A stretch of DNA of 64,000 bases from Actinomycetes bacterium (GTDB lineage: Bacteria > Actinomycetota > Acidimicrobiia > Acidimicrobiales > Microtrichaceae), in contig JAAEPF010000017.1 in the NCBI GenBank assembly GCA_024222295.1, positions 372,001-436,000 on the forward strand. The letters are read 5' to 3'. Positions within the stretch are counted from its first letter, which is position 1. Each line of letters starts with the position of its first letter. A program made the translations under genes and the position numbers. Below are positions 9,815 through 63,763 of this stretch, piece after piece. Below the pieces are notes generated by a model. It searched no databases and was not told where the DNA came from. It saw only the letters and a list, made by a program, of their open reading frames with translations.

Positions 9815-10380
9815 GGCTTCTCGTTCCTCTCGGAGTATCCGGGCTCGCCGAGCTGCTCGCGCATCTTGCGGCGGGCCCGGTGCAGGCGGCTCATGACGGT
9901 TCCTTCGGGGATGCCGGCGACTTCTGCTGCCTCGGCGTAGGACAGTCCTCCAAGGTCGACGAGTTCGATGATCTGGCGGAAGTCTTCCGAGAGCCTGCCG
10001 AAAGCGGTTTCCACTGCGGCATCGAAGGTGCCGGCGAGCGCCGCCTCCTCGGCGGTGGCTCCGTCGTCCGCGGCTGGATCGGGCAGTTCGCTCTGGGCCT
10101 CGGTCAGCAGAGTCGGGCGCCTCCGTCGGTGGCGGTTGATCTCCGCGTTGCGCAGGATCGTGAGCAGCCAGGCCCGCGGGTGGCGGCCGTCGAAGCGGTC
10201 GATCGAGCGGTACGCCCGAATCATGGTCTCCTGGGCCAGATCTTCCGCGTCGTGGGCATTGCGCGTGATCGATCGGGCCACGCGCAGCATCACCGCGACC
10301 TCGGGGATCACGTACGCCTCGAACCGTTGCGCGGCATCGCCATCAGTGTCGGGCTCGGGCGATTCAGTCAAGACGTTCAT
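9811..10380 (-). CDS. ECF RNA polymerase sigma factor (SigR/SigH-like)
   Basis: ECF sigma factor of 189 residues. Region 2 shows DAEDLAQETMIRAYRSIDRF near residue 45 and region 4 shows LSYAEAAEVAGIPEGTVMSRLHRARRK near residue 150. Start ATG 10380 is preferred to in-frame upstream starts because the extension is low-complexity and would cover the promoter. The promoter at 10436-10461 has the form recognised by sigma-R/SigH factors, which predicts autoregulation. Three other copies of that promoter lie in this locus. It forms one operon with the anti-sigma factor and peroxiredoxin-like gene, the usual arrangement for thiol-stress sigma factors. Confidence 0.9.
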   Translation of the reverse strand: MNVLTESPEPDTDGDAAQRFEAYVIPEVAVMLRVARSITRNAHDAEDLAQETMIRAYRSIDRFDGRHPRAWLLTILRNAEINRHRRRRPTLLTEAQSELPDPAADDGATAEEAALAGTFDAAVETAFGRLSEDFRQIIELVDLGGLSYAEAAEVAGIPEGTVMSRLHRARRKMREQLGEPGYSERNEKP

Positions 10381-10435
10381 GGTGTCACAGGCGGTCCCGG
10401 CATCGGTTGGCGAGGCTGTGCGGGATCGGGTGGGC

Positions 10436-10461
10436 AACCCGTCCCGCGTCGGGAGCATTCC
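10436..10461 (-). promoter_or_regulatory. Sigma-R/SigH-type promoter of the sigma factor operon
   Basis: Minus-strand GGAAT (10457-10461), 18-base spacer, GTT (10436-10438). It predicts a leader of about 45-50 bases before ATG 10380, unlike the other three promoters of this type here, which appear leaderless. Confidence 0.7.
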
Positions 10462-10471
10462 ACCTGACGGT

Positions 10472-10497
10472 GGAAGGCCCGGCGCGTCGAACGGGTT
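10472..10497 (+). promoter_or_regulatory. Sigma-R/SigH-type promoter (variant) of the frameshifted acyltransferase
   Basis: GGAAG (10472-10476), 18 bases, GTT (10495-10497), then eight bases to ATG 10506. One mismatch from the consensus -35 but the same spacing. It is back-to-back with the sigma operon promoter, with ten bases between the two -35 elements. Confidence 0.55.
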
Positions 10498-10505
10498 TGG
10501 CAGCC

Positions 10506-11620
10506 ATGCCCACATCGCCCGATTCCGAGGACACCGGCAGGTTTCGTCGGCGCATCACGACAGTGCCAACCGTGCTCGCCGTCGCCGCGCTGGGATTGCT
10601 GAGCGCCCCGTTCGCGGTGCACCTCATCGCGCTCGCGGACCTGGCGAGGGGTCGCTTGCAGCTGCCCGGACTGCGGGTGTGGGCCATGGCCATGCAGTAC
10701 CTGTTCAACGAGACGGTCGAGGTCCTTGCCGCACCGCTGTTGTGGATCGCCGCAGGGCTTGGCACGAGGCTCGACTCACCGAGTTCGAGACGCAGGCACA
10801 CACGCCTGGCGTTGTGGTCGGCACGCTCGCTGGCGCGCCGCGCCGAGCAACTGCTCGGTGTGCACCTGGTCGTGCACGAGGACCGGCAACGGTTGCCGGT
10901 GAATGCGTCGACGCTGGTTCTGGCGCGCCATGCCAGCGTGCTGGATGCGGCGCTTCCGGCCGTGGTCCTGTTCGACAGCAACCGGGTACAGGACCACACG
11001 CTCACAGGAGTGCTGATGTCGGAGCTGCTGTCGGACCCGGGCTTCGACCTGATCTACCACCGGCTCGGCTGTGTGTTCGTCGACCGCGCCGACGGCCCCG
11101 ACGCGAGGCGCCGCATCCGGCGATGGCCGAGTCCCTGGGCGATGCTTCTGTGGCCGTGGTGTTTCCAGAAGGGCGGCTGTTCTCCCGGGCCTCCCTGGAC
11201 CGGCGGATGCAGACGCTCTCCGAGCGCGACCCGGAGCGGGCCCGGCGCCTGGAGTCCCTCGACTCGGTCCTGCCGTCACATCCCGGTGGTGTGCTCGAGG
11301 CCCTCGACGGGACCGACGGCGCACATGTCGCGGTGGTGGCGCATCGGGGCCTCGAGAGCGTCGCGTCGCTGAGGGAGTTGTGCCGCACGGCGCCTGTGCG
11401 ACACCCGGTCGAGGTGCGGGTCACCTGGTGGGAGCCGGAGGCCATCCCGGCCTCGAGGGCCGACAGGGTGGAGTGGCTCGACGAGGTCTACCTGGACATG
11501 GACCGATGGGTCCGCCGCTGTGACGATGGGGGCGCCCTAGCGGGCCCTGAACCAGTCGGGGCCGTTGACGGTGCGGTCGACGGCGTCGAGAGCGGCGTCG
11601 TGGCAGGGCGGCCGCTGTAG
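10506..11620 (+). pseudogene. PlsC-like acyltransferase with a frameshift
   Basis: The first part (10506 to about 11120) encodes a hydrophobic N-terminus and the acyltransferase motif ARHASVLDAAL (H-x4-D), reaching HRLGCVFVDRADGPDARRRIRR. The continuation, MAESLGDASVAVVFPEG and onward with the FPEG motif, is in another frame starting at 11123. The intact paralogue at 13995-15008 has the two halves joined (DRGAADS, then MAEGMG and VIFPEGTRS). One missing base near 11121-11122 explains it. It may be a true null allele or a sequence error. Function if intact: 1-acylglycerol-phosphate acyltransferase-like lipid acylation at the membrane. The 3' end overlaps the convergent lipoprotein gene. Confidence 0.75.
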
Positions 11621-49522: not shown

Positions 49523-50311
49523 ATGACTGATGACACTCCCAGCGCGCCCGGTGACCTCTTTGATGTGGAGGGTCGTACCGTGGTGGTGACCGGCGCCACG
49601 AGCGGGATCGGGCGGATGATCGCCGGCGGGTTCGTGGGCGCCGGCGCAGAGGTGATCGTGACCTCGCGAAAGGCTGACGCGGTGGAGGCGACTGTTGCGG
49701 AGCTGTCCTCTGTGGGGACCTGCTCGGGCACCACTTCCAACCTGTCCACCGAGGGCGGTTGCAGGGACTTCGCAAGCTGGGTGGCCGAGCGCCATGACGG
49801 CCTGGATGTGCTCGTCAACAACGCTGGCGCCACCTGGGGTGCACCGCTCGCGGAGCAGGACACCGCATCGTGGTCGCGGGTGCTCGACCTCAACCTGGCC
49901 GGCGTGTTCCATGTGACCAGGTTCCTGCTGCCGTTGCTCGAGGCCGCGGGCACTGCCGAGGATCCGGCACGGATCATCAACGTGGGGTCGACCAACGGCC
50001 TCAAGCCACCTCCGATGGAGACATACGCATACACGGCATCGAAGGCGGCGGTGCACCAGATGTCGCGACACCTCGCCGGCCACCTGGGCCCGGAGATCAC
50101 GGTCAACGCCCTGGCTCCCGGGCCGTTCCCCTCCAAGATGATGGCGGGCACCCTCGAGGCGTTCGGTGAGCAGATTGCAGGGTCGCTGCCGATGCAGCGG
50201 GTTGGTCGCGCCGACGACATCGCAGGCGCCGCGATCTTCCTTGCCTCGCGCGCCGGTGCGTTCGTGACCGGGGCGGTCATTCCGGTCGACGGTGGATCGG
50301 CCTGTGTCTGA
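49523..50311 (+). CDS. SDR-family oxidoreductase
   Basis: Short-chain dehydrogenase of 262 residues. VTGATSGIGRMIA is near residue 21, NNAGATWGAP near residue 94 and YTASKAAVHQM is the catalytic pair near residue 173. It resembles 3-oxoacyl reductase-like and rhamnolipid RhlG-like SDRs. Divergent from phoD and followed after 67 bases by the acyl-CoA-dehydrogenase-fold gene. Substrate not evident. Confidence 0.9.
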   Translation: MTDDTPSAPGDLFDVEGRTVVVTGATSGIGRMIAGGFVGAGAEVIVTSRKADAVEATVAELSSVGTCSGTTSNLSTEGGCRDFASWVAERHDGLDVLVNNAGATWGAPLAEQDTASWSRVLDLNLAGVFHVTRFLLPLLEAAGTAEDPARIINVGSTNGLKPPPMETYAYTASKAAVHQMSRHLAGHLGPEITVNALAPGPFPSKMMAGTLEAFGEQIAGSLPMQRVGRADDIAGAAIFLASRAGAFVTGAVIPVDGGSACV

Positions 50312-50378
50312 CGCCAACCGGGGCGGTGTGCCGGTGTCTGCTCGTGCTGCAAGGATGCACCCGGACAAGGAGGGTCAC

Positions 50379-51518
50379 ATGACCGCAGTAGCCGCCGCAC
50401 GGGATCTGTATGAAGAGCTGGACACGATCGCGCAGGCGACGCGCCCGGGGGAGTCGTTTGATCGCTCCGCCCTCGACGCGATCGCAACCGCCGGGCTCAA
50501 CGGCGTGGCCGTGCCCAAGGCACTGGGCGGTGCCGACCTGCCCCTGGTGGAAGCGGTCGACGTGTGGGCGGAGCTCTCGCGGGCCGACGGTTCGATCGGC
50601 TGGTGCTCCTTCGCCGCCGACTCGGCGCTGGCTTACTTCGGGGCGTACCTGGACGACGAGGGCATCGGCATCCTCATGGATGGACGACCGGAGGGCTCGC
50701 TGCCCGTGGTGGCAGGGCAGTTCGCACCCAACGGTGCGGCCACGGCGGACGGCGACGACTGGTTGCTGGACGGCGACTACCAGTTCGGTTCCGGAATCGT
50801 GCTGGCCGACTTCGCCGGAGCGGGCTTCTTCGCCACGCCCGCCGACGGTGGCGATGCCGCCTACCTGATGGGCTGCTTCCCCCAGGGCCTCATCGACCAG
50901 AAGGGCAACTGGGAAGTGCTGGGCCTGCGCGCCACGCAGTCCATCGACTACGGAGTGCACGGGGTGCGTGTGCCACGGGTCAGTGCTTTCGACTTCTTCA
51001 CCCCGACCGTGCACCGCGGCTCTGCCAAGCACTACCTGGGTGTGTTGCCCCTGACAGCGGCCGGTCACGCCGGATGGGCGCTCGGAGTGGCACGACGGAT
51101 GCTCGATGAGCTCACGGAGCTGGCCAGGACCAAGACCCGCATGGGTGCCACCGCCGGTCTGGCCGATTCGGAGTACTTCCTGATCAACCTGGCCCGTCTC
51201 GAGTCGCGGCACCGTGCGGCGAGGGCCTGGGTCGCGGAGGTCTGCGAGCAAGCTGAGGCCGAGTGCGAGGCCCGCGGCGATTTCGTGTCCGTGCCCACGG
51301 CGAACCTCGTCCGTCAGGCGTGCGTGCATGCCAACCGCGACTCCGTGGAACTGGCACGCGAGGCCTACACGCTCGCCGGCACCTCCGCGTTGCGCGAGGG
51401 ACCGCTGCAGAAGTGCTTCAGGGACCTGCACGCCGGGGGCCAGCACTACTTCGCGTCCGACGCTCCGAGCGTCGAGTACGGCCAGACCCTCGTTCAGGGG
51501 AAGGACAGTGCCCGGTAG
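50379..51518 (+). CDS. Acyl-CoA dehydrogenase-fold flavoprotein (HsaA-like)
   Basis: Flavoenzyme of 379 residues. The N-terminal helical domain contains GLNGVAVPKALGGADLPLVEA and RADGSIGWC, the middle beta domain GNWEVLGLRATQSIDYGV, and the C-terminal helical domain ends with SALREGPLQKCFRDLHAGGQH. The GIW/GSIGW and late DLHA patterns are those of the group that includes flavin-dependent monooxygenases such as HsaA as well as true dehydrogenases. The ribosome binding site AAGGAGGG precedes ATG 50379. Reduced-flavin supply, needed for a monooxygenase, is not encoded next to it. Confidence 0.85.
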   Translation: MTAVAAARDLYEELDTIAQATRPGESFDRSALDAIATAGLNGVAVPKALGGADLPLVEAVDVWAELSRADGSIGWCSFAADSALAYFGAYLDDEGIGILMDGRPEGSLPVVAGQFAPNGAATADGDDWLLDGDYQFGSGIVLADFAGAGFFATPADGGDAAYLMGCFPQGLIDQKGNWEVLGLRATQSIDYGVHGVRVPRVSAFDFFTPTVHRGSAKHYLGVLPLTAAGHAGWALGVARRMLDELTELARTKTRMGATAGLADSEYFLINLARLESRHRAARAWVAEVCEQAEAECEARGDFVSVPTANLVRQACVHANRDSVELAREAYTLAGTSALREGPLQKCFRDLHAGGQHYFASDAPSVEYGQTLVQGKDSAR

Positions 51519-51521
51519 GGT
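51516..51521 (+). promoter_or_regulatory. Leaderless-type -10 box of the broken sulfatase gene
   Basis: TAGGGT overlaps the upstream stop codon and ends 8 bases before ATG 51530. Confidence 0.4.
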
Positions 51522-51529
51522 GCGGCACC

Positions 51530-52793
51530 ATGACCGGTTCACGGCCGAACATCCTGTTGATCCTCACCGATGAGGAGCGTGCCCAGCCGGACTATGAAGT
51601 CGAAGCGCTGGCCGATTTCAGGAAGGAGCGATTGCCGGCTCGCAGCAGCCTCGAGCGGGAGGGGATGCAGTTCGGCCGTCACTACACGGCGGCGACCGCG
51701 TGTGTGCCGAGTCGGGCATCGATCTTCACCGGCCAGTATCCGAGCCTGCACCGGGTTCGCAACACTGATGGACTCGGCAAGTCTGCGACGGGCCCGTGGA
51801 TGAAGTGGCTCGGAGGTGTTCGACCAGCTCGGGCTCGAAGGCGACGGCGGCCAGCCGTGGATGGCCGTGGCGTCGTTCCTCAACCCGCACGACATCGTGT
51901 TCAGTGGCGAGCCGTGGAAGATGTTCGGTTTCCCACCCGTGCCGGATTGGGTCCCCGAGGTGCCAGAAGCGCCGTCGCAACAGGACTCGTTGGACGATCG
52001 TCCGGCCTGCCAGAAGGCACTCCGAGACGTGTGGCCGAAGATGGTCTTCCCCCAGCCGACCGACTCGGAGTTCCGTCGGCTCTACCACTTCCTGCAGGCG
52101 ATGGTCGACGAGTCGATCTCCCGGATCCTGGGGCCACTCGAACGCAACGGTCTCGCCGAGAACACGATCGTGATCCACACCGCTGACCACGGCGATCAAC
52201 TCGGTGCACACGGCGGGCTGATCGAGAAGTGGCACGTCGCCTACGAGGAGTCCATTCGCGTGCCGTTCGTGGCGCGTGGACCCGGAATCGCTCCCGGCCG
52301 AACCGAGGTGCCGACCAGCCACGTCGACCTGCTTCCGACACTTCTGGGCCTGGCCGGAACGAGCCCCGGCCAGCTCACCGACAAGCTTCCGGGTGAGTTC
52401 AGTCAGTTGCAGCCGCTGCCGGGGCGCGATCTGTCGAGCGTTCTGAGAGGGAACGGGGAACCATCCAGGGAGCCGATCTACTTCATGACCGAGGACGAGA
52501 TCAGCCGCGGCGACATCCACCGGGGACCGATATCGCACGAGGTGTTCGAGGCCGTCCCACCGCCGGGTTGCGTCGAATCGGTCATAAGCGAGTTCGAAGG
52601 CCACCTCTGGAAGCTCAACCGCTACTACGACGCCGACCAGCACACCGACGAAGAGGAGTGGGAGCTTCACGACCTCACGTCCGATGTCCATGAACGGGAC
52701 AACAGGTACGCCGACGCCCTCGACGCCCGCGAGGCCCTCGAAGACGTGCTCGAGGAACAACGCGCACAGAAACGCCTGACGCCCAGCGAATAG
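51530..52793 (+). pseudogene. Sulfatase family protein with internal deletion and frameshift
   Basis: The 5' part encodes NILLILTDEER and the formylglycine site ACVPSRASIFTGQYPSLH (CxPSR), up to GPWMKWLG near 51810. The 3' part, in another frame from about 51808, encodes VFDQLGLEGDGG, VASFLNPHDIVFSG, HTADHGDQLGAHGG (metal ligands) and the C-terminal subdomain. The intervening roughly 120-150 residues of the family, with the GKWH-type lysine and histidine, are missing. The loss is not a multiple of three. Together the pieces give about 420 codons against a usual 550 or so. Inactive unless the gap is an assembly artefact. Confidence 0.8.
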
Positions 52794-52946
52794 TCCTGGA
52801 GCGCCGATCCGAGCCCCGGGCGCGCCCACATCTACGCCAACCTCGGTCAGCTCAGCGCAGGACGGGCGAGTGCCATTGCCGACCTCGCAACGTCTCCGGG
52901 CGAGCCGGCTCCTCAGGTCCCCGGCTTCGAGGCGCCGGGCGAATAG
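52794..52946 (+). other. Possible protein-coding remnant after the sulfatase
   Basis: In the frame of the sulfatase 3' part, the DNA stays open beyond the TAG at 52791-52793 to a TAG at 52944-52946 and reads protein-like sequence (GRAHIYANLGQLSAGRA, then a Pro-rich end). It has no start codon or ribosome binding site of its own. It may be a decayed gene tail; chance is possible. Confidence 0.2.
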
Positions 52947-52987
52947 GCTGACGCCGAGTGGCGTCGGCGCCACGGAACGGAGTCATC

Positions 52988-53543: not shown

Positions 53544-55082
53544 ATGGCAATCGTCAAGCCCGCAGAGCCCACCGAGTCCGGTCGGCGACGCTACGACCTC
53601 GCATCACCCGCAACCGGCGACCCGATCGGCCAGCTCGAGTGCACCACGCCGGACGAAGTCCGCTCGCTCGTCGCACGCGCCCGTGAGGCCCAGCCCGCGT
53701 GGGAGGCACTGGGCCCCGCAGGCCGCGCCGAGTACCTGAAGCGCGCCCTGGCGGTGCTCGTGGACAGCCAGGATGAGCTCGTCGACGTGATCGTGCGTGA
53801 GTCGGGCAAGCCGCGCAGCGAGGCCCTGATGATCGACGTGTTCGCAGCGGCAGATTCGCTTGCATACCTCGCGAAGAACGCCGGCAAGTGGCTGCGCGCC
53901 GAATCGATGCCGACCCATGGCGTCCTGCGCCTCACCAAGAAGGTGCAGGTTCGGTACCAGCCGCTGGGCGTCGTGGGCGTCATCTCGCCGTGGAACGGTC
54001 CCCTGATCCTCTCGCTCAATCCGGCCATCCAGGCACTCATCGCCGGCAACACCGTGGTGGTGAAGCCGTCCGAGGTGACCCCCTACTCCGGCAAGCTGGC
54101 CGTCGACCTGTTCGAGCGTGCCGGTATACCCGAAGGCGTGATCCAGGTGGCCATGGGCGACGGCGAGACGGGCGCGGCCCTGGTCGAGGGCGGAGTCGAC
54201 AAGGTCCACTTCACGGGCAGCGTCGCCACGGGCCGCAAGATCGCGGAGGCGTGCGGTCGCCAACTGATCCCGCACACCCTCGAGCTGGGCGGCAATGACG
54301 CCATGATCGTGTGCTCCGACGCGGATCTCGACGCAGCGGCCGGTGGTGCCGTGGTCGGTTCGATGTTCAACACCGGCCAGTACTGCTGTGGCACCGAGCG
54401 GGTCTACGTCATGGAGGACGTGGTCGAGGAGTTCACACAACGGGTGGTTGACCGAGTGCGCAGCCTCCGCCAGGAGACCTCCGGCTCGTTCGATGTGGGC
54501 CCGATGTTCTGGGACCGCCAGCTCGACAAGGTCACCGAGCAGGTCGACTCGGCCATCGCCGACGGCGCGACAGCGCTGGTGGGTGGCAAGCGCAACGACA
54601 AGCTCCCCGGGCTCTACTTCGAGCCAACGGTGTTGACCGGCGTCAACCACGACATGGCAGTGATGCGCGACGAGACCTTCGGTCCCGTCCTGCCGATCGT
54701 GCCCGTCGCGAGCGTGGACGAGGCCATCAAGTACGCCAACGACACCAACTACGGCCTCGCGGGCAGCGTGTGGACCTCAGATGTGGATGCCGGCGTCGAG
54801 ATTGCCTCGCGGCTGCACACAGGCAGCGTGTCGGTCAACGACATGGCGCTCACCTATGGCATCCCCGAGGCCCCGTTCGGTGGCCGTCGCGAGAGCGGAG
54901 TCGGCCAGGCCAACGGCAAGGTCGGAGTACGCAGCTTCACCCATGCGCAGCCCATCGTCATCGACCGCTTCGGTGGCAAGCAGACCGCCGGTCAGTACCC
55001 CTACAAGCCGAGCACCGAGAAGATCATGCAGCGCATGATCCGCGTCACCTGGGGCAAGGGCATAGCGAAGCTGAAGAAGTAG
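53544..55082 (+). CDS. Aldehyde dehydrogenase family protein
   Basis: NAD(P)-dependent aldehyde dehydrogenase of 512 residues. VGVISPWNGPLILSLNPA near residue 140 is the cofactor region, VHFTGSVATGRKIAE near residue 220, the general base is in TLELGGNDAMIV near residue 250 and the catalytic Cys is in NTGQYCCGTERVYV near residue 285; the late APFGGRRESGVGQ is also typical. The 3' end carries a 19-bp tandem duplication that repeats the stop codon. A terminator upstream makes it a separate unit. Substrate unknown. Confidence 0.93.
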   Translation: MAIVKPAEPTESGRRRYDLASPATGDPIGQLECTTPDEVRSLVARAREAQPAWEALGPAGRAEYLKRALAVLVDSQDELVDVIVRESGKPRSEALMIDVFAAADSLAYLAKNAGKWLRAESMPTHGVLRLTKKVQVRYQPLGVVGVISPWNGPLILSLNPAIQALIAGNTVVVKPSEVTPYSGKLAVDLFERAGIPEGVIQVAMGDGETGAALVEGGVDKVHFTGSVATGRKIAEACGRQLIPHTLELGGNDAMIVCSDADLDAAAGGAVVGSMFNTGQYCCGTERVYVMEDVVEEFTQRVVDRVRSLRQETSGSFDVGPMFWDRQLDKVTEQVDSAIADGATALVGGKRNDKLPGLYFEPTVLTGVNHDMAVMRDETFGPVLPIVPVASVDEAIKYANDTNYGLAGSVWTSDVDAGVEIASRLHTGSVSVNDMALTYGIPEAPFGGRRESGVGQANGKVGVRSFTHAQPIVIDRFGGKQTAGQYPYKPSTEKIMQRMIRVTWGKGIAKLKK

Positions 55083-57708: not shown

Positions 57709-58218
57709 ATGGGCAAGAACGAGCGTTCAAGGGTCGCCATGAGCGACGATGAGATCGAGGACTACCTCCAGCGGAGTCGAACCGCCACCATCGCGACGGT
57801 CGGGGCCGACGGCACCCCGCACCTGGTGGCCATGTGGTACGCCGTGGTCGACGGGGCGATCTGGTTCGAGACCAAGAGCAAGTCCCAGAAGGCCGTCAAT
57901 CTGCGCCGAGACCCGCGAGTCACGGTGCTTATCGAGGACGGCGAGACCTACGACAGCCTGCGCGGTGTCTCCTTCGAGGGGACCGCGGAGATCACTGACG
58001 ATCCCGACCGACTCTGGGAGGTCGGTGTCAGTGTCTGGGAGCGCTACAACGGCCCGTACACCGAAGACATGAAGCCGTTCGTGGAGATCATGTTGCAGAA
58101 CCGAATAGCGGTGAAGGTCGACGTGGAACGGGTGCGTTCGTGGGATCACCACAAGCTCGGCATGGACGCGATGCCGATCGGTGGAACGACTGCCGAGCAC
58201 ATCCACGAGCGCGGGTGA
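57709..58218 (+). CDS. PPOX-fold (F420- or FMN-binding) family protein
   Basis: Split-barrel protein of 169 residues of the pyridoxamine-phosphate-oxidase-like superfamily. RTATIATVGADGTPHLVAMWY near residue 24, IWFETKSKSQKAVNLRRDPRV and LRGVSFEGTAEI follow the pattern of actinobacterial F420-dependent members. F420 rather than FMN is likely but not shown. Nine bases separate it from the AttH-like gene. Confidence 0.82.
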   Translation: MGKNERSRVAMSDDEIEDYLQRSRTATIATVGADGTPHLVAMWYAVVDGAIWFETKSKSQKAVNLRRDPRVTVLIEDGETYDSLRGVSFEGTAEITDDPDRLWEVGVSVWERYNGPYTEDMKPFVEIMLQNRIAVKVDVERVRSWDHHKLGMDAMPIGGTTAEHIHERG

Positions 58219-58227
58219 GGGGCCGCC

Positions 58228-59379
58228 GTGAACCCGATCGGCGAACTACTGGCGGCTGACGAGCAGCTCACCCACCAGACAACCGACACCTTCGCCACGG
58301 TCGGTACCTCGGACCCATCGTGGACCGAGAAGGTCTGCGCCATGGCCATGGCACGCGACGGCAGCATCCAGTTGGGCTTCGGACTGGGCAAGTACACGAA
58401 TCGCAACGTCATGGATGCCTACGCAGCGGTGGGCAGAGGCGCTTCGCAGCACACGGTGCGTGCCAGTCGGCGGCTCGCGCCCGAGCCCGAACTCACCTCC
58501 ATCGGCCCGGTTCGCTACGAGGTGGTGGAACCCCTGCACAAGGTGCGGTTCCACCTCGAGGCCAACGATTGCCAGCCAATCTCCTTTGACTGGACCTTCA
58601 CATCCGTGGTGCCTCCGGTGGTGGAGGAGCGCACCCACCTACGCGCCGGCTACCGAATCTCGGCCGACCTCGTGCGCTACCACCAGACCGGCATCGCCGA
58701 GGGCTGGGTCGAGGTGGACGGCGAGCGCACCGAGATCGACCCGGAGAGCTGGGTGTCGACGCGGGACCACTCCTGGGGTGTTCGCTACGACGTGGGTGTG
58801 CCACCGGTGGATGTCGAGGGCGCCGAGATCGAGATCCCGGCCGGGGTCGGCTTCATGATGATGTGGTGTCCGGCACTGCTGGAACGGCCCGACGGATCCC
58901 GGTACGCGAGCCACCTGCACTTCACCCGCTTCGCCATGCCGGGCCTCGACCAGCGCACGGTGACGGCCGGCGTCGAGCATCCGGACGGGTCGCGTGAGCC
59001 GATCGTGGCAATGGAGCCCGATCTGGCGTTCGACCCTGACAACCGTCGGTTCCTCGGCGGCACGATCGAGGCGGTGATGGACGACGGTTCCAGCAGGCCG
59101 TTTCACCTCGAGGCCCTGGGCGACACGGGCGTGCACCTCGGCCTCTACTTCGGCTACGACGGCCACCACCACGGCGAGTTCCGGGGCGAGCTGCAGGTCG
59201 AAGGCGAGTTCATCGAGGACTGCCGCGACCCCGCGACTGCGCGGCGGATCCACCAGATCCGCGACACCGCGGTGCGGGTGACCGACCCGATCGGTGGCGG
59301 GACCGGTTGGGGCAACTGCCAGACCGTCGCGGCGGGGCCATGGCCCGATGCGGGCCTGGCAGACGAGTCCTGGCTCTGA
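58228..59379 (+). CDS. AttH/CrtC-like calycin-type protein of unknown function
   Basis: Protein of 383 residues made of two beta-rich halves. The N-terminal half contains DGSIQLGFGLGKYTN and VRFHLEANDCQPISFDW; the link has WVSTRDHSWGVRYDVG, a motif seen in large actinobacterial families with the AttH/hydroxyneurosporene-synthase-like double-calycin fold. The C-terminal half ends with GYDGHHHGEFRGELQ and WGNCQTVAAGPW. It may bind or act on a lipid or isoprenoid, but this is not proven. It shares a transcription direction with the PPOX gene and the Rieske operon. Confidence 0.65.
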   Translation: MNPIGELLAADEQLTHQTTDTFATVGTSDPSWTEKVCAMAMARDGSIQLGFGLGKYTNRNVMDAYAAVGRGASQHTVRASRRLAPEPELTSIGPVRYEVVEPLHKVRFHLEANDCQPISFDWTFTSVVPPVVEERTHLRAGYRISADLVRYHQTGIAEGWVEVDGERTEIDPESWVSTRDHSWGVRYDVGVPPVDVEGAEIEIPAGVGFMMMWCPALLERPDGSRYASHLHFTRFAMPGLDQRTVTAGVEHPDGSREPIVAMEPDLAFDPDNRRFLGGTIEAVMDDGSSRPFHLEALGDTGVHLGLYFGYDGHHHGEFRGELQVEGEFIEDCRDPATARRIHQIRDTAVRVTDPIGGGTGWGNCQTVAAGPWPDAGLADESWL

Positions 59380-59419: not shown

Positions 59420-61075
59420 ATGATCGAGCCGATAGTCGTGGCGAACCTTTCCGAGGTGGCCGACCGTGAGCCTTTCGGCGTGTCGTTGCACGGCATGGAG
59501 CTCGTGGTCGTGCGGATGGGCGACGACGTATCGGTGCTGGCCGGCCGATGCCTGCACCGGGGCGCGCGCCTCGCTGACGGCAAGGTGGTCGGCGACGACC
59601 TGATCTGCAGCCTCCATGGTTGGGACTACCGGGCGTGCTCGGGCGTCTCTGCCTACGACCCCAACCAGAAGCTGCACCGCTACGAGGTGGAGGTCCATGG
59701 CGACGAGGTGCGCGTGTGCGCCGCCGAGGTTCGCGAGCAGGCCACGGTGCGGCCCACGACCGATGTCACCGAGACACCGGTCGACGTGCCCGAGGCGCGC
59801 ACCAGCGCAGTCGCCGAGTACGAGTGGCACTACGAGAATCCGCATGGGGGCGCCGAGGAGGACCGTGTCGGCGACATCCACGAACTGGCGCTGTTCGGGC
59901 TGTCCCGCGTGGGGCACCACGGCCCGGTGTCGGCGATGGGTGTGCCCCGTTCGGACCTGCCGAGTTGGGACGACCTCCAGTTCCTCACAGCGCAGTTGGC
60001 ACGGTTCCCGCGCTTCGATCAGGACGTGGTCGGCACCGACGTGACGATCGGCCCCGCTGCCGCCAAGCCGTTGCGGCTGGGCATTCCGCTGTTCGTGTCA
60101 GACATGAGCTTCGGCGCACTCTCCGAAGAGGCGAAGGTGGCGCTGGCCCGTGGCGCCGAGCAGGCGGGCACAGGGATCTGCTCCGGCGAGGGCGGGATGT
60201 TGCCCGACGAGCAGGCTGAGAACAGCCGCTACTTCTATGAGTTGGCGTCGGGCCGTTTCGGCTGGGACTTCGCCCATCTCGACTCGGTGCAGGCTTTCCA
60301 CTTCAAGTTCGGCCAGGGTGCGAAGACCGGCACCGGTGGCCACCTGCCCGGACCCAAGGTCGTGGGCCGCATCGCCGAGGTGCGCAACCTCCCCGAGGGC
60401 ACCGCAGCGGTGTCACCCAGTCGTTTCCCCAACCTCGACAGCATCGGTGAGATCGCGGGTTTCGCGGCTGAGGTGAGGGAGCGAAGCGGTGGCATCCCCA
60501 TCGGGGCGAAGCTGTCGGCACAGCACATCGAGGCGGACATCGACGCCGCTCTCGAGATCGGTGTCGACTACATAATCCTCGACGGTCGCGGCGGTGGCAC
60601 AGGCGCAGCTCCGCTCATCTTCCGGGATCACATCTCGGTGCCCACCATGCCTGCGATCGCCCGGGCGCGCCGCCATCTCGACCGCAGCGATGCCGATGGC
60701 GTGACCCTGGTTGCCACCGGAGGCCTGCGCACGCCCGCCGACTTCGCCAAGGCGATGGCGCTGGGCGCGGATGCCGTTGCGGTCGCCAATTCTGCGTTGC
60801 AGGCAATCGGCTGTGTGGGCATGCGTGCGTGCCACACCGACCGTTGCCCGGTGGGCATTGCCACGCAGGACCCGGAGCTGCGCTCCCGCTTGCCTGTGGA
60901 CGAGGCGGCAGCGCGGCTGGCGCGGTTCCTGCAGGCTTCCGCTGACCTCATGGCCGTGCTCGCCCGCGCCTGCGGCCACGATCACCTCGCCGAGCTGGCG
61001 GTACAGGACCTGACGACGTTCAATCGCGAGGTGCACCACCTCACCGGCGTCACGTACGGAGGGGTACTGCCATGA
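59420..61075 (+). CDS. Rieske [2Fe-2S] domain fused to glutamate synthase FMN/Fe-S domain
   Basis: Protein of 551 residues. Residues 1-105 are a Rieske domain with C44-x-H46 and C63-x2-H66 (16 residues between), which bind a 2Fe-2S cluster. Residues about 180-545 match the central FMN domain of glutamate synthase: VSDMSFGALSEEAK, GAKTGTGGHLPGPKV, DGRGGGTGAAPL and ATGGLRTPADFAKAMALGAD. C465-x5-C471-x4-C476 has the spacing of the 3Fe-4S ligands of GltB. The glutamine amidotransferase domain and a GltD partner are absent. Its stop overlaps the next ATG (ATGA). It probably moves electrons between Rieske cluster, 3Fe-4S cluster and FMN; the reaction is unknown. Confidence 0.9.
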   Translation: MIEPIVVANLSEVADREPFGVSLHGMELVVVRMGDDVSVLAGRCLHRGARLADGKVVGDDLICSLHGWDYRACSGVSAYDPNQKLHRYEVEVHGDEVRVCAAEVREQATVRPTTDVTETPVDVPEARTSAVAEYEWHYENPHGGAEEDRVGDIHELALFGLSRVGHHGPVSAMGVPRSDLPSWDDLQFLTAQLARFPRFDQDVVGTDVTIGPAAAKPLRLGIPLFVSDMSFGALSEEAKVALARGAEQAGTGICSGEGGMLPDEQAENSRYFYELASGRFGWDFAHLDSVQAFHFKFGQGAKTGTGGHLPGPKVVGRIAEVRNLPEGTAAVSPSRFPNLDSIGEIAGFAAEVRERSGGIPIGAKLSAQHIEADIDAALEIGVDYIILDGRGGGTGAAPLIFRDHISVPTMPAIARARRHLDRSDADGVTLVATGGLRTPADFAKAMALGADAVAVANSALQAIGCVGMRACHTDRCPVGIATQDPELRSRLPVDEAAARLARFLQASADLMAVLARACGHDHLAELAVQDLTTFNREVHHLTGVTYGGVLP

Positions 61076-63042
61076 GCGGCGACGAGACAGCGATGAGCAG
61101 CGGTGGCGAGCCGGTGCGGCGGCACCGGCTCGACCCGGCGGACCTGCCCGATGAAGGCCGGGTGCGCACGGTCACCATCGACGGTCACAGCCTGGCGGTG
61201 ACGAACTGTGACGGAACAATCGGGGCGCTCGACAACCGGTGCCCGCACCAGGGTGGACCGCTCGGGGAGGGCACGATCGAACACGGGTGGTTGCGCTGCC
61301 CGTGGCACGGCTACGACTACGACCCCACCACTGGCAGGCCGCCTGAGGGCTTCACCGATGCCCCGACCTGTTTCACCGTCACGACCGACGGCGACGGCAC
61401 CTTCGTCGACCTCCCGGTGCGGCCCGAACATGAACGGACCGTGGGCGACGTGATGGTGGAGACGCTCGTCGCCTGGGGAGTCACCCATGTGTTCGGGATG
61501 GTCGGGCACTCCAATCTCGGCTTCGCCGATGCGATGCGCCGGGCGGAGGATCGCGGCGAGCTCACCTATGTGGGGATTCGCCACGAGGGGGCCGCGGCGT
61601 TTGCCGCTTCGGCGCACGGCAAGCTCACAGGTAGACCGGCGGCCTGCTTTGCGATCGCGGGGCCGGGATCGACCAACCTGCTCACCGGGCTCTACGACGC
61701 CAGGGTAGACGGAGCACCCGTGATTGCCATCTCTGGCCAGGTTCCGTCGAAGGTGTTGGGCAGGGGCGCGTTCCAGGACCTCAACCTCGAAGGAGCCTTC
61801 GCTGATGTGGCGGTGTGGAGCCACACCGTGCACGCGGGTTCGGACCACGCCGAACTGGCGACGCTGGCGGTGAAGCATGCGATCGACGAGGGCGGCGTCG
61901 CCCATCTGGTCCTGCCGGACGAGGTTCAGGAGCAGCGCAGCGAATCTCCGGCCGGCGCGCCGCAGGGACGGCTCGCCAGCCGGGCAACCGTCGCTGACCC
62001 TGCCGCTGTGGCGACGGCGACAGAGTTGATGGCGGCGGCCGAACGGCCGGTCGTGGTGGTTGGCCACGGTGCCCGCGATGCGGTCGATCCCGTGCTTCGC
62101 CTGGCCGAGCGGCTGGGTGCGCCGGTCTTCACCACGTTCAAGGCAAAGGGCTTGGTCGGCGATGACCATCCGCTCGGCGCGGGAGTGCTCGGTCGGTCTG
62201 GGACGCCTGTTGCGAGCTGGCTCATGAACGAGTCGGACCTCGTGATCGCCCTCGGTGTGTCGTTCTCGAACCACACCGGAGTGGCCGACTACAAGGACAT
62301 CGTGCAGGTCGACCATGACCCGGCGGCACTGGGACGGTTCCACCCGGTCACCTGTGGGCTGCTCGGCGATGTGGCTGCGACGGTCGGCCAGCTGTGTGAC
62401 TCACTCGGAGACGATCTCGCTGCTGTGGACCAGCGAGGCGACCTGGCTCACCGCTGGGGGCTGTGGCGAGCGGAGAAGCAGCGCCGACTCGGCGAAGAGC
62501 GTGGTCGGGGCGTCGCTTCGGTGGCCGTGTTCGACGCGCTGGGACGGCACTGTCCCGACGATGCCGTGATCTGTGTCGACGTGGGCAACAACACATACTC
62601 GTTCGGCCGCTACTTCGAGTCCTCCGGCGATCAGGCGGTGTTGATGTCGGGCTATCTGGGGTCGATCGGATTCGGCCTGCCCGCAGCGCTGGGGGCGTGG
62701 GCTGCGGATCCCGTTCGCCCACTTGTGTCGATCAGCGGCGACGGTGGGTTCGGCCAGTACATGGCCGAGCTGACGACGTTCGTGAAGTACGGGATCCCGG
62801 TGCGTCACGTGCTCATCGACAACTCCGAGCTCGGCAAGATCTCCAAGGAGCAGCGTGCTGCCCAACTCGATGTCTGGCAGACCAGCCTCGTGAACCCTGA
62901 CTTCGCCGCCTACGCGGAGCTGTGCGGCGCATCCGGGTTCACGGCGCGCACGTCCGGTGAGCTCGACGACGCGCTCGCCGGTGCATTCGCAGCAGACGGT
63001 CCCGCGCTCGTGCACGTGGTTGCCGACGGTGACCTCGTCTGA
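61072..63042 (+). CDS. Rieske [2Fe-2S] domain fused to TPP-dependent enzyme
   Basis: Protein of 656 residues. Residues about 15-118 are a Rieske domain with C57-x-H59 and C76-x2-H79. From residue 124 it is a full thiamine-diphosphate enzyme of the acetolactate synthase/pyruvate oxidase type: GDVMVETLVAWGVTHVFGMVG, the catalytic E172 in RHEGAAAFAA, a central domain (VVVGHGARDAVDPVLRLAERLG) and the TPP/Mg motif GDG at 556-558 with N584. The Rieske domain is not a known part of this family. Coupled (ATGA) to the Rieske-glutamate synthase gene, so the two products may form one redox complex. Confidence 0.9.
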   Translation: MSGDETAMSSGGEPVRRHRLDPADLPDEGRVRTVTIDGHSLAVTNCDGTIGALDNRCPHQGGPLGEGTIEHGWLRCPWHGYDYDPTTGRPPEGFTDAPTCFTVTTDGDGTFVDLPVRPEHERTVGDVMVETLVAWGVTHVFGMVGHSNLGFADAMRRAEDRGELTYVGIRHEGAAAFAASAHGKLTGRPAACFAIAGPGSTNLLTGLYDARVDGAPVIAISGQVPSKVLGRGAFQDLNLEGAFADVAVWSHTVHAGSDHAELATLAVKHAIDEGGVAHLVLPDEVQEQRSESPAGAPQGRLASRATVADPAAVATATELMAAAERPVVVVGHGARDAVDPVLRLAERLGAPVFTTFKAKGLVGDDHPLGAGVLGRSGTPVASWLMNESDLVIALGVSFSNHTGVADYKDIVQVDHDPAALGRFHPVTCGLLGDVAATVGQLCDSLGDDLAAVDQRGDLAHRWGLWRAEKQRRLGEERGRGVASVAVFDALGRHCPDDAVICVDVGNNTYSFGRYFESSGDQAVLMSGYLGSIGFGLPAALGAWAADPVRPLVSISGDGGFGQYMAELTTFVKYGIPVRHVLIDNSELGKISKEQRAAQLDVWQTSLVNPDFAAYAELCGASGFTARTSGELDDALAGAFAADGPALVHVVADGDLV

Positions 63043-63070: not shown

Positions 63071-63763
63071 TCAGATGGCTGCGCGCAGGCCCTCGGTGAA
63101 GAAGCTGACCGCGTCGTCGACCGAGGAGATGCGGTCGTAGCTGTAGCTGGCACCGAAGGGCTCGGTCCAGAACTCGCCCTCACGGGGCTCCCACGGGCCC
63201 ACATACAGGTAGGGCTCGGCGATGCCGTCGTCGCCGGGGCTGGCGCCGAAGTTGACCTCGGCCATGCTGAACGCGAGGTCGAAGTGTTCGGGCCAGAGCT
63301 GCACGATGGCGGGGGAGCGCTCGGCATTGGCCCGTCTGACCGCCTCCAGCGCCTGCTGCACCAGTGCGTACCAGGCGGCGAGACGCGTAGCGGCGTGCGC
63401 GTCGATGCGCAGCTCGGCGTCCGCGTCGGCGGCAGTGCCGGGTGTGAATACCTGGGTGGGGGCGCCGAGTCGGACCGAGGCCGATTCGGCGGCGGCACCC
63501 AGCGTGGTGAGCGGGTGCCAAGTCTCGTGGTCGCCTTCGAGCACCACCAGCGATGTGCTGTCGACTCTGAGACGCCGGCGAACGCCGCCGACGGAGAACT
63601 CGGGCTGGCCGAACCCGCCAGGTGTGGCCCGCAGGCCGATCCTGCCGGTGTGGTGGTGCAGGTCGGCGGCGAGAACGTGCTCGGCCACCGACTGGAGTGC
63701 GAGTCGGGTGTCGGTGTGGGCTTCGAGGTCGGCGATCCCGAATGGGGAGGTCATGGTGTCCAT
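63071..63763 (-). CDS. Conserved protein of unknown function
   Basis: Protein of 230 residues, no signal peptide or membrane helix. Residues about 45-110 are beta-rich (GRIGLRATPGGFGQPEF, LRVDSTSLVVLEGD); a helical part follows (ARLAAWYALVQQALEAV) and the C-terminal part reads LWPEHFDLAFSMAEVNFG, DGIAEPYLYVGPWEP and FWTEPFGASYSY. I have no firm family name; similar actinobacterial proteins are unannotated. ATG at 63763 or 63754 are both possible starts. Confidence 0.7.
   Translation of the reverse strand: MDTMTSPFGIADLEAHTDTRLALQSVAEHVLAADLHHHTGRIGLRATPGGFGQPEFSVGGVRRRLRVDSTSLVVLEGDHETWHPLTTLGAAAESASVRLGAPTQVFTPGTAADADAELRIDAHAATRLAAWYALVQQALEAVRRANAERSPAIVQLWPEHFDLAFSMAEVNFGASPGDDGIAEPYLYVGPWEPREGEFWTEPFGASYSYDRISSVDDAVSFFTEGLRAAI

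Follow-up and report, generated by a model that had tools for sequence, protein, structure and literature searches.

A 64,000-nucleotide stretch of an actinobacterial genome of the class Acidimicrobiia (assembly GCA_024222295.1, contig JAAEPF010000017.1, positions 372,001 to 436,000; this whole stretch is hereafter the window) encodes two adjacent enzymes on its forward strand, each carrying an N-terminal Rieske domain. The first, P0001 (59420-61075, 551 residues), joins this domain to the core of glutamate synthase that binds flavin mononucleotide (FMN) and a 3Fe-4S cluster (the GltS core); the second, P0002 (61072-63042, 656 residues), joins it to a pyruvate-oxidase-like enzyme dependent on thiamine diphosphate (ThDP). 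A functional coupling of the two families, Rieske-GltS and Rieske-ThDP, is well supported. The best explanation that we can offer for it, held tentatively and somewhat short of an even chance, is a two-enzyme electron-transfer module in which electrons would run from ThDP through one Rieske cluster and then the other to the 3Fe-4S cluster and FMN.

Architecture of the two enzymes

The assignment of both genes draws on the list of open reading frames (ORFs), Pfam, alignments, AlphaFold2 models and fold matches, and it bears out a sequence-only reading of this DNA, which had placed two Rieske-fused enzymes side by side here. The genes overlap by ATGA (61072-61075), as that reading had also noticed, the ATG of P0002 beginning at 61072 and the TGA of P0001 occupying 61073-61075. 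The Rieske domain spans residues 5-84 of P0001 (59432-59671; E 5.1e-15), with ligands C44, H46, C63 and H66 in a motif that starts at C44 (CLHRGARLADGKVVGDDLICSLH), and residues 23-89 of P0002 (61138-61338; E 1.5e-15), with ligands C57, H59, C76 and H79 in a motif that starts at C57 (CPHQGGPLGEGTIEHGWLRCPWH). Both motifs do read C-x-H-x16-C-x2-H, the common layout that had first been remarked on; this spacing is frequent rather than universal: among the rows with a readable motif, some of them the same genome again, x17 replaces x16 in 4 of 77 for GltS and x21 does so in 5 of 111 for ThDP. Both proteins match PF00355 with two Cys and two His ligands, and a cluster is predicted in each. The check on cluster binding consisted of ligand conservation only, and the four ligands are kept in 26/26 rows for P0001 and 55/55 for P0002.

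In P0001, a linker (residues 112-174, 59753-59941), predicted with a local distance difference test score (pLDDT) below 50, would tether the Rieske domain to the core. The Glu_synthase region, an FMN barrel (residues 215-519, 60062-60976; E 1.3e-89), superimposes on glutamate synthase (PDB 1ea0; Z 32.0, root-mean-square deviation (rmsd) 2.6, 345 residues aligned), and the three cysteines C465, C471 and C476 (60812-60847), which align with the 3Fe-4S ligands of glutamate synthases, are present in 26/26 rows. Residues E257, K296, Q299, K302 and R322, likewise invariant in 26/26 rows, align with E903, K966, Q969, K972 and R992 of the Synechocystis enzyme; together with Q978 we take these to line the 2-oxoglutarate site of glutamate synthase, so that five of the six are retained. 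In agreement with the sequence-only reading, the Pfam matches of P0001 include no amidotransferase and no GltD-like gene was found among the five scanned ORFs around the pair; the C-terminal GltB domain is likewise missing from the Pfam matches.

P0002 comprises TPP_enzyme_N (residues 123-237, 61438-61782; E 5.3e-35), which includes H146 and the catalytic-type E172, TPP_enzyme_M (residues 313-441, 62008-62394; E 4.7e-35) and TPP_enzyme_C (residues 503-649, 62578-63018; E 1.1e-32), which contains a GDGG motif and K589. TPP_enzyme_M is the domain that holds flavin adenine dinucleotide (FAD) in pyruvate oxidases, and P0002 probably binds FAD as well. We take G35, E59, H89, F121, Q122, R264, W479 and E483 to be the active-site set of the pyruvate oxidase (POX) of Lactobacillus plantarum. 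Among the Rieske-ThDP rows, E59, F121, Q122 and E483 are kept in 55/55 and R264 in 54/55, the P0002 counterparts including E172, F234, Q235 and E593, whereas the remaining three of the eight, G35, H89 and W479, are replaced by H146, N202 and K589 in 55/55. By curated score P0002 also falls short of a pyruvate oxidase (399.7 against 742 bits for NCBIfam NF006377, the other listed models likewise being below their cut-offs), and given the uniform replacements its family forms a distinct, uniform subfamily. An additional negative charge on the substrate would be in keeping with the invariant Lys and His of the pocket.

The AlphaFold2 model of P0002 (pLDDT 92, predicted template modelling score (pTM) 0.90) is a single compact unit that includes the Rieske domain. 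Its best fold match is Escherichia coli PoxB (3eya; Z 43.3, rmsd 2.5, 517 aligned), followed closely by 9ev6 (Z 42.3, rmsd 2.6, 530 aligned), and other ThDP enzymes trail by only a few Z units, among them non-oxidative members such as acetolactate synthases at Z 39-43. That the non-oxidative enzymes come just under PoxB lends something to an alternative in which P0002 is itself non-oxidative and kept active by its cluster, while P0001 is fed by an NAD(P)H-dependent Rieske reductase encoded elsewhere, the link between the two being a shared donor or shared regulation. Rieske ferredoxins are indeed usually fed by flavoprotein reductases. The 137 neighbouring ORFs surveyed below, picked by a rule that misses some genes, contain no recurrent reductase gene, and the association is with one partner form of GltS. 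Both points weigh against this alternative, which we consider unlikely.

Conservation and co-occurrence of the pair

Of the 571 Rieske-ThDP candidates in a scan across species genomes, the best 80, drawn from many phyla, were examined. Since the two patterns used in the scan lay inside the Rieske domain, these 80 loci have a Rieske domain by construction, a bias from which the searches of genome samples (Actinomycetota, the window's class and a second phylum) are free. A GltS core adjoins the Rieske-ThDP gene in 29/80 loci, 23 of them with GltS upstream of ThDP as in the window, 4 divergent and 2 in the order ThDP to GltS. On plasmids of the haloarchaea Salinirubellus, Halorarius and Halorubrum both genes lie within 20 kb of each other; in the stretches read of Haloferax larsenii and Mycobacteroides abscessus plasmids there is a ThDP gene and no GltS. 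Judged by contig coordinates, some loci are the same genome met twice (L080 is G177 and L081 is G917).

The genome samples gave a consistent result. Among 396 Actinomycetota, 11 have Rieske-ThDP, 8 Rieske-GltS and 6 both (Fisher p 2.5e-9, or 6.6e-8 without the window's genome), so that Rieske-ThDP is carried by 6/8 of the genomes that have Rieske-GltS and by 5/388 of the rest; the Rieske domain on the GltS of one member, G329, was confirmed. In the window's class (n=296) the corresponding numbers are 52, 43 and 33 (p 1.1e-21), or 33/43 against 19/253, counting as the Rieske form two genomes, G821 and G704, whose hits cover the query only from residues 313 and 52 onward, respectively, and one, G765, whose GltS is split in two pieces. 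In Acidobacteriota (n=247), the phylum of the Thermoanaerobaculia genome that holds locus L060, they are 16, 11 and 9 (p 7e-11), or 9/11 against 7/236, the former becoming 8/10 without G607, whose GltS is a cut copy. The adjacency in 29/80 loci and the co-occurrence in the samples rule out chance adjacency of genes of these types. Distances among the ThDP proteins also correlate with those among their GltS partners, with a Mantel r of 0.70 for 35 linked pairs and 0.51 for 18 unlinked ones (0/5000 permutations as high), which shared species ancestry can also explain. In the open-licence PMC literature, which makes for a weak absence, we found no description of the pair, of a Rieske domain together with acetolactate synthase and pyruvate oxidase, or of one with a glutamate synthase-related protein.

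An exchangeable iron module in front of the GltS core

The family to which the core of P0001 belongs carries one of three N-terminal iron modules: a Rieske domain, CDGSH motifs or rubredoxin. P0001, a shared core preceded by a small iron domain, conforms to this plan. The CDGSH form was found in three Vibrionaceae plasmids, four Acidobacteriota genomes and the genome of locus L067, and the rubredoxin form in Monoglobus, six Actinomycetota and five Acidobacteriota genomes; among the Acidobacteriota, G539 has a Rieske copy as well. The rubredoxin precedes the core at, for instance, L115:1492-2997, L263, L265, L266, L267 and L268. A CDGSH domain fused to Glu_synthase has already been published (PMC5859297); for rubredoxin with an FMN-binding glutamate synthase no paper was found in the open-licence PMC literature, again a weak absence. 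Identity between the window's core and its four CDGSH counterparts in Acidobacteriota is 66-68%, so the difference between the CDGSH and Rieske forms lies largely in the module.

The company kept by the Rieske form differs from that of the other two. Pooling the two phylum samples only, as the class and Actinomycetota samples overlap in genomes, Rieske-ThDP accompanies the CDGSH or rubredoxin GltS in 0/14 genomes and the Rieske GltS in 15/19 (p 3.7e-6). A tree built from 41 cores places the rubredoxin, the CDGSH and the amidotransferase-linked types on one branch each, that of CDGSH lying within the Rieske types (support of the fork 89/99, the root being uncertain). Two further members stand apart. 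A Pseudoalteromonas plasmid (L014:7962-10100) encodes a GltS core without an iron module and with about 270 additional C-terminal residues, and in G329 a divergent GltS (L110:1495-3696, 46% identity), whose Rieske domain also matches Rieske_2, adjoins Rieske-ThDP; this is possibly a second, independent Rieske capture, its placement in the tree being hampered by long branches.

The exchange of modules also bears on the idea that the Rieske domains are sensors of oxygen, iron or redox state, or structural parts, which switch two ordinary stress enzymes together. The compact model of P0002 with its Rieske domain (pTM 0.90) would be compatible with such a role, as would the company of extracytoplasmic function (ECF) sigma factors and Na+/H+ antiporters (the latter near the ThDP gene in 14/85 loci) and of mercuric reductase and DsrE-like genes on the haloarchaeal plasmids. 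What CDGSH, rubredoxin and Rieske modules have in common is the role of electron carrier and not a fold, and we therefore think a sensory or structural role improbable.

Separate origins of the two Rieske domains

Between the two Rieske domains of the window, 24/98 positions agree. A tree of 52 such domains (103 columns, midpoint root) puts those of GltS (18 rows, support 99/91) and of ThDP enzymes (22 rows, 97/92) in separate groups, and because they descend separately we conclude that there were two captures and not one duplication. Copying of the domain between the genes within the operon is ruled out by the same identity and tree groups. Nearest to the ThDP Rieske domains in the tree are those that a ferric-reductase-like membrane protein carries at its C-terminal end. 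Four very long ThDP ORFs (L025, L026, L028 and L037), candidates for direct GltS-ThDP fusions, were rejected as frames that read through the GltS region; by its coordinates, that of L025 is in a different frame from GltS.

Flavoproteins and ferric-reductase-like proteins beside the pair

For the survey of neighbours, 137 of 436 ORFs were picked by a rule based on the guanine-cytosine content of codon positions, which misses genes. An FMN_red flavoprotein adjoins the ThDP gene in 11/85 loci, none of which has a GltS there (32/85 loci do). On the scale of genomes, a GltS of this family occurs in 0/7 FMN_red genomes against 22/33 others (p 0.0017), the seven being five actinobacteria and two cyanobacteria, that is, few lineages. 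FMN_red thus seems to stand in for GltS as flavin partner. Examples beside Rieske-ThDP genes that lack GltS are L007:9142-12000 and L072:12167-12922, with an ECF sigma factor and an Na+/H+ antiporter in several actinobacteria.

In 9 genomes one of the two genes adjoins that for a Ferric_reduct protein with a C-terminal Rieske domain (L102:12755-13804, L097:14407-15510, L077:12613-13632 and six other genomes). Rieske-GltS is present in the locus or genome of 8/9 of these, and the ninth has CDGSH-GltS. Often the next gene encodes a conserved protein that has about 260 residues and matches nothing in Pfam (L067:2986-3774).

One could also read this association as a sign of sequential enzymes, the GltS core acting as an amino-acid (or hydroxy-acid) dehydrogenase whose 2-oxo product P0002 would decarboxylate oxidatively, with both Rieske domains passing electrons to one common acceptor, which in some genomes would be the Ferric_reduct-Rieske protein. 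This would agree with the kinship of the Ferric_reduct and ThDP Rieske domains in the tree, with the presence of Rieske-GltS in 8 of the 9 genomes, and with the core fold, which is also that of 2-hydroxy-acid oxidases. Yet most loci show no such protein, the FMN_red stand-in is better suited to the place of an electron acceptor than to that of a supplier of substrate, and in glutamate synthases with the same core reduced FMN reduces 2-iminoglutarate (PMC8097209). Among the alternatives it is the one we take most seriously, and we still judge it rather unlikely.

A proposed electron-transfer module

Returning to the two-enzyme module, P0002, with ThDP and probably FAD, would decarboxylate and oxidise a 2-oxo acid. 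The electrons would leave it singly through its own Rieske [2Fe-2S] cluster, which would replace the exit to O2 or to membrane quinone, and would next be taken up by the Rieske domain of P0001, acting in place of the ferredoxin or GltD of ordinary glutamate synthases. From there they would reach the 3Fe-4S cluster and FMN, where the substrate reduced would be a 2-oxo acid or a 2-imino acid; the likeliest is one of the 2-oxoglutarate type, used together with free ammonium. Compared with bacterial Rieske ferredoxins and with the glutamate/2-oxoglutarate couple, 2-oxo-acid oxidation is by far the more reducing, and the direction from ThDP to FMN would thus be downhill. This flow also fits because the GltS module is exchanged among unrelated folds, because Rieske-ThDP keeps company with the Rieske form, and because a flavoprotein is found where GltS is missing. 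Extended further, and with correspondingly less confidence, decarboxylation of one 2-oxo acid might pay for reductively aminating, or otherwise reducing, another with no need of NAD(P)H, soluble ferredoxin or quinone. In this view the GltS core would be a socket, and the iron module plugged into it, be it Rieske, CDGSH or rubredoxin, would select the donor.

A number of observations weigh against this proposal. At least 1.7 kb on both sides of the ThDP gene without a GltS neighbour is seen in 34/80 loci, the other 17 being too short; when 40 such genomes were searched whole, 22 held a GltS of this family, a count that includes the cut copies G404 and G424, the CDGSH form in G420 and one locus that proved adjacent (L058). 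The co-occurrence suggested for checking by the sequence-only reading is strong in all three samples, and its p values ignore ancestry; in the class sample 19/52 Rieske-ThDP genomes have no Rieske-GltS and 10/43 Rieske-GltS genomes no Rieske-ThDP. The functional link that it had supposed is supported, with adjacency in many phyla and on the three haloarchaeal plasmids, co-occurrence and specificity for Rieske-GltS behind it. The outcome that it had named as refuting is nonetheless present in part, since each fusion is also found alone, and the chain from P0002 to P0001 is therefore not obligatory. Beyond the phylum samples, the genome of L067 combines Rieske-ThDP with CDGSH-GltS. Both active sites differ from those of the known enzymes, given the three replacements in P0002 (H146, N202 and K589) and, in P0001, H308 at the position of Q978 in 26/26 rows. 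The AlphaFold2 model of P0001 is only moderate (pLDDT 77, pTM 0.69, with residues 112-174, 300-312 and 391-405 below 50). Finally, the window's genome also holds a long ordinary GltB frame and a further GltS-like gene; because of the former, plain ammonium assimilation can do without P0001.

If the module is real, it would be a self-contained redox couple of 2-oxo-acid oxidation and glutamate-synthase-type reduction. The family would in addition offer a comparison of electron-transfer specificity, with three exchangeable iron modules on one core, the Rieske one having a ThDP partner. At 551 and 656 residues both proteins are of ordinary size, which makes testing in the test tube feasible.

Other neighbouring genes

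The gene that follows the pair on the opposite strand (63071-63763, 230 residues) encodes a DUF5996-like protein, a kind that recurs in 28/80 ThDP loci by a profile built from these neighbours. The protein has no Pfam match of its own, to PF19459 or to any other family at E 0.01, and its homology to DUF5996 was established through its cluster. Comparing the two neighbour clusters with hhalign gave E 7.3e-21, which makes the short and the long form homologues; a member of the second cluster matches PF19459 at 25.5 bits against a threshold of 25, and 3 of the 137 scanned neighbours match DUF5996, at best with E 7.9e-56. In one metagenome-assembled genome a DUF5996-like domain is fused in frame ahead of Rieske-ThDP (L047:8948-11920, 991 residues). 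No paper on DUF5996 was found in the open-licence PMC literature, a weak absence, and the pair would provide a first context for a DUF5996-like family.

Upstream on the same strand, and separated from P0001 by 40 bases, lies a gene for an Rv3169-family protein (58228-59379; NF053593, 361.6 bits, cut-off 150), possibly in one transcript with P0001. It is preceded, after a gap of 9 bases, by a PPOX-class gene resembling F420-type flavin reductases (57709-58218, forward strand; TIGR03618 above cut-off), which also precedes the pair in the related genome G294 (in a neighbour cluster with L104 and L175). An aldehyde dehydrogenase gene (53544-55082, forward strand) lies 4.3 kb upstream of the pair; the nearest model is succinic semialdehyde dehydrogenase (480.5 against 521 bits), and a tie to 2-oxoglutarate chemistry would be speculation. 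Three long ORFs, 50277-51542 and 51726-52973 on the reverse strand and 9968-11620 on the forward strand, have no Pfam match at E 1e-5 and may be spurious frames. The neighbour survey yielded no clues to the substrates. DHFR-like genes occur close to GltS in two of the haloarchaea and in a genome of the Calditrichia, and M20 peptidases in all three haloarchaea.

Comparison with known systems

P0001 shares with the NADPH- and ferredoxin-dependent forms of GltB the FMN barrel of the Glu_synthase region, the 3Fe-4S cysteines and five of the six residues around 2-oxoglutarate. It differs in lacking the C-terminal domain and the class II amidotransferase and in carrying a fused Rieske domain, and it scores 135.9 against the 1047 bits of the curated GltB model. 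P0002 has the three ThDP domains of the pyruvate oxidase family in common with POX, PoxB and the pyruvate:quinone oxidoreductase of Corynebacterium glutamicum, and sets itself apart by the N-terminal Rieske domain. It ends at about residue 531 of the 572 of PoxB, whose last 40 or so residues, the membrane-binding tail, have no counterpart. In principle the scheme resembles pyruvate:ferredoxin oxidoreductase, which belongs to another ThDP family and oxidises the ThDP intermediate through 4Fe-4S clusters with the use of CoA; the likeness is one of working principle.

The closest comparisons are with the other members of the GltS core family, which likewise bear a small N-terminal iron module. 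In the CDGSH-Glu_synthase fusions, whose Vibrio copies are 55% identical to P0001 overall, CDGSH takes the place of the Rieske domain, and in the samples these fusions occur without Rieske-ThDP. The rubredoxin-Glu_synthase fusions have cores about 41-51% identical to that of P0001, and Rieske-ThDP is absent from 10/10 such genomes that lack a Rieske copy.

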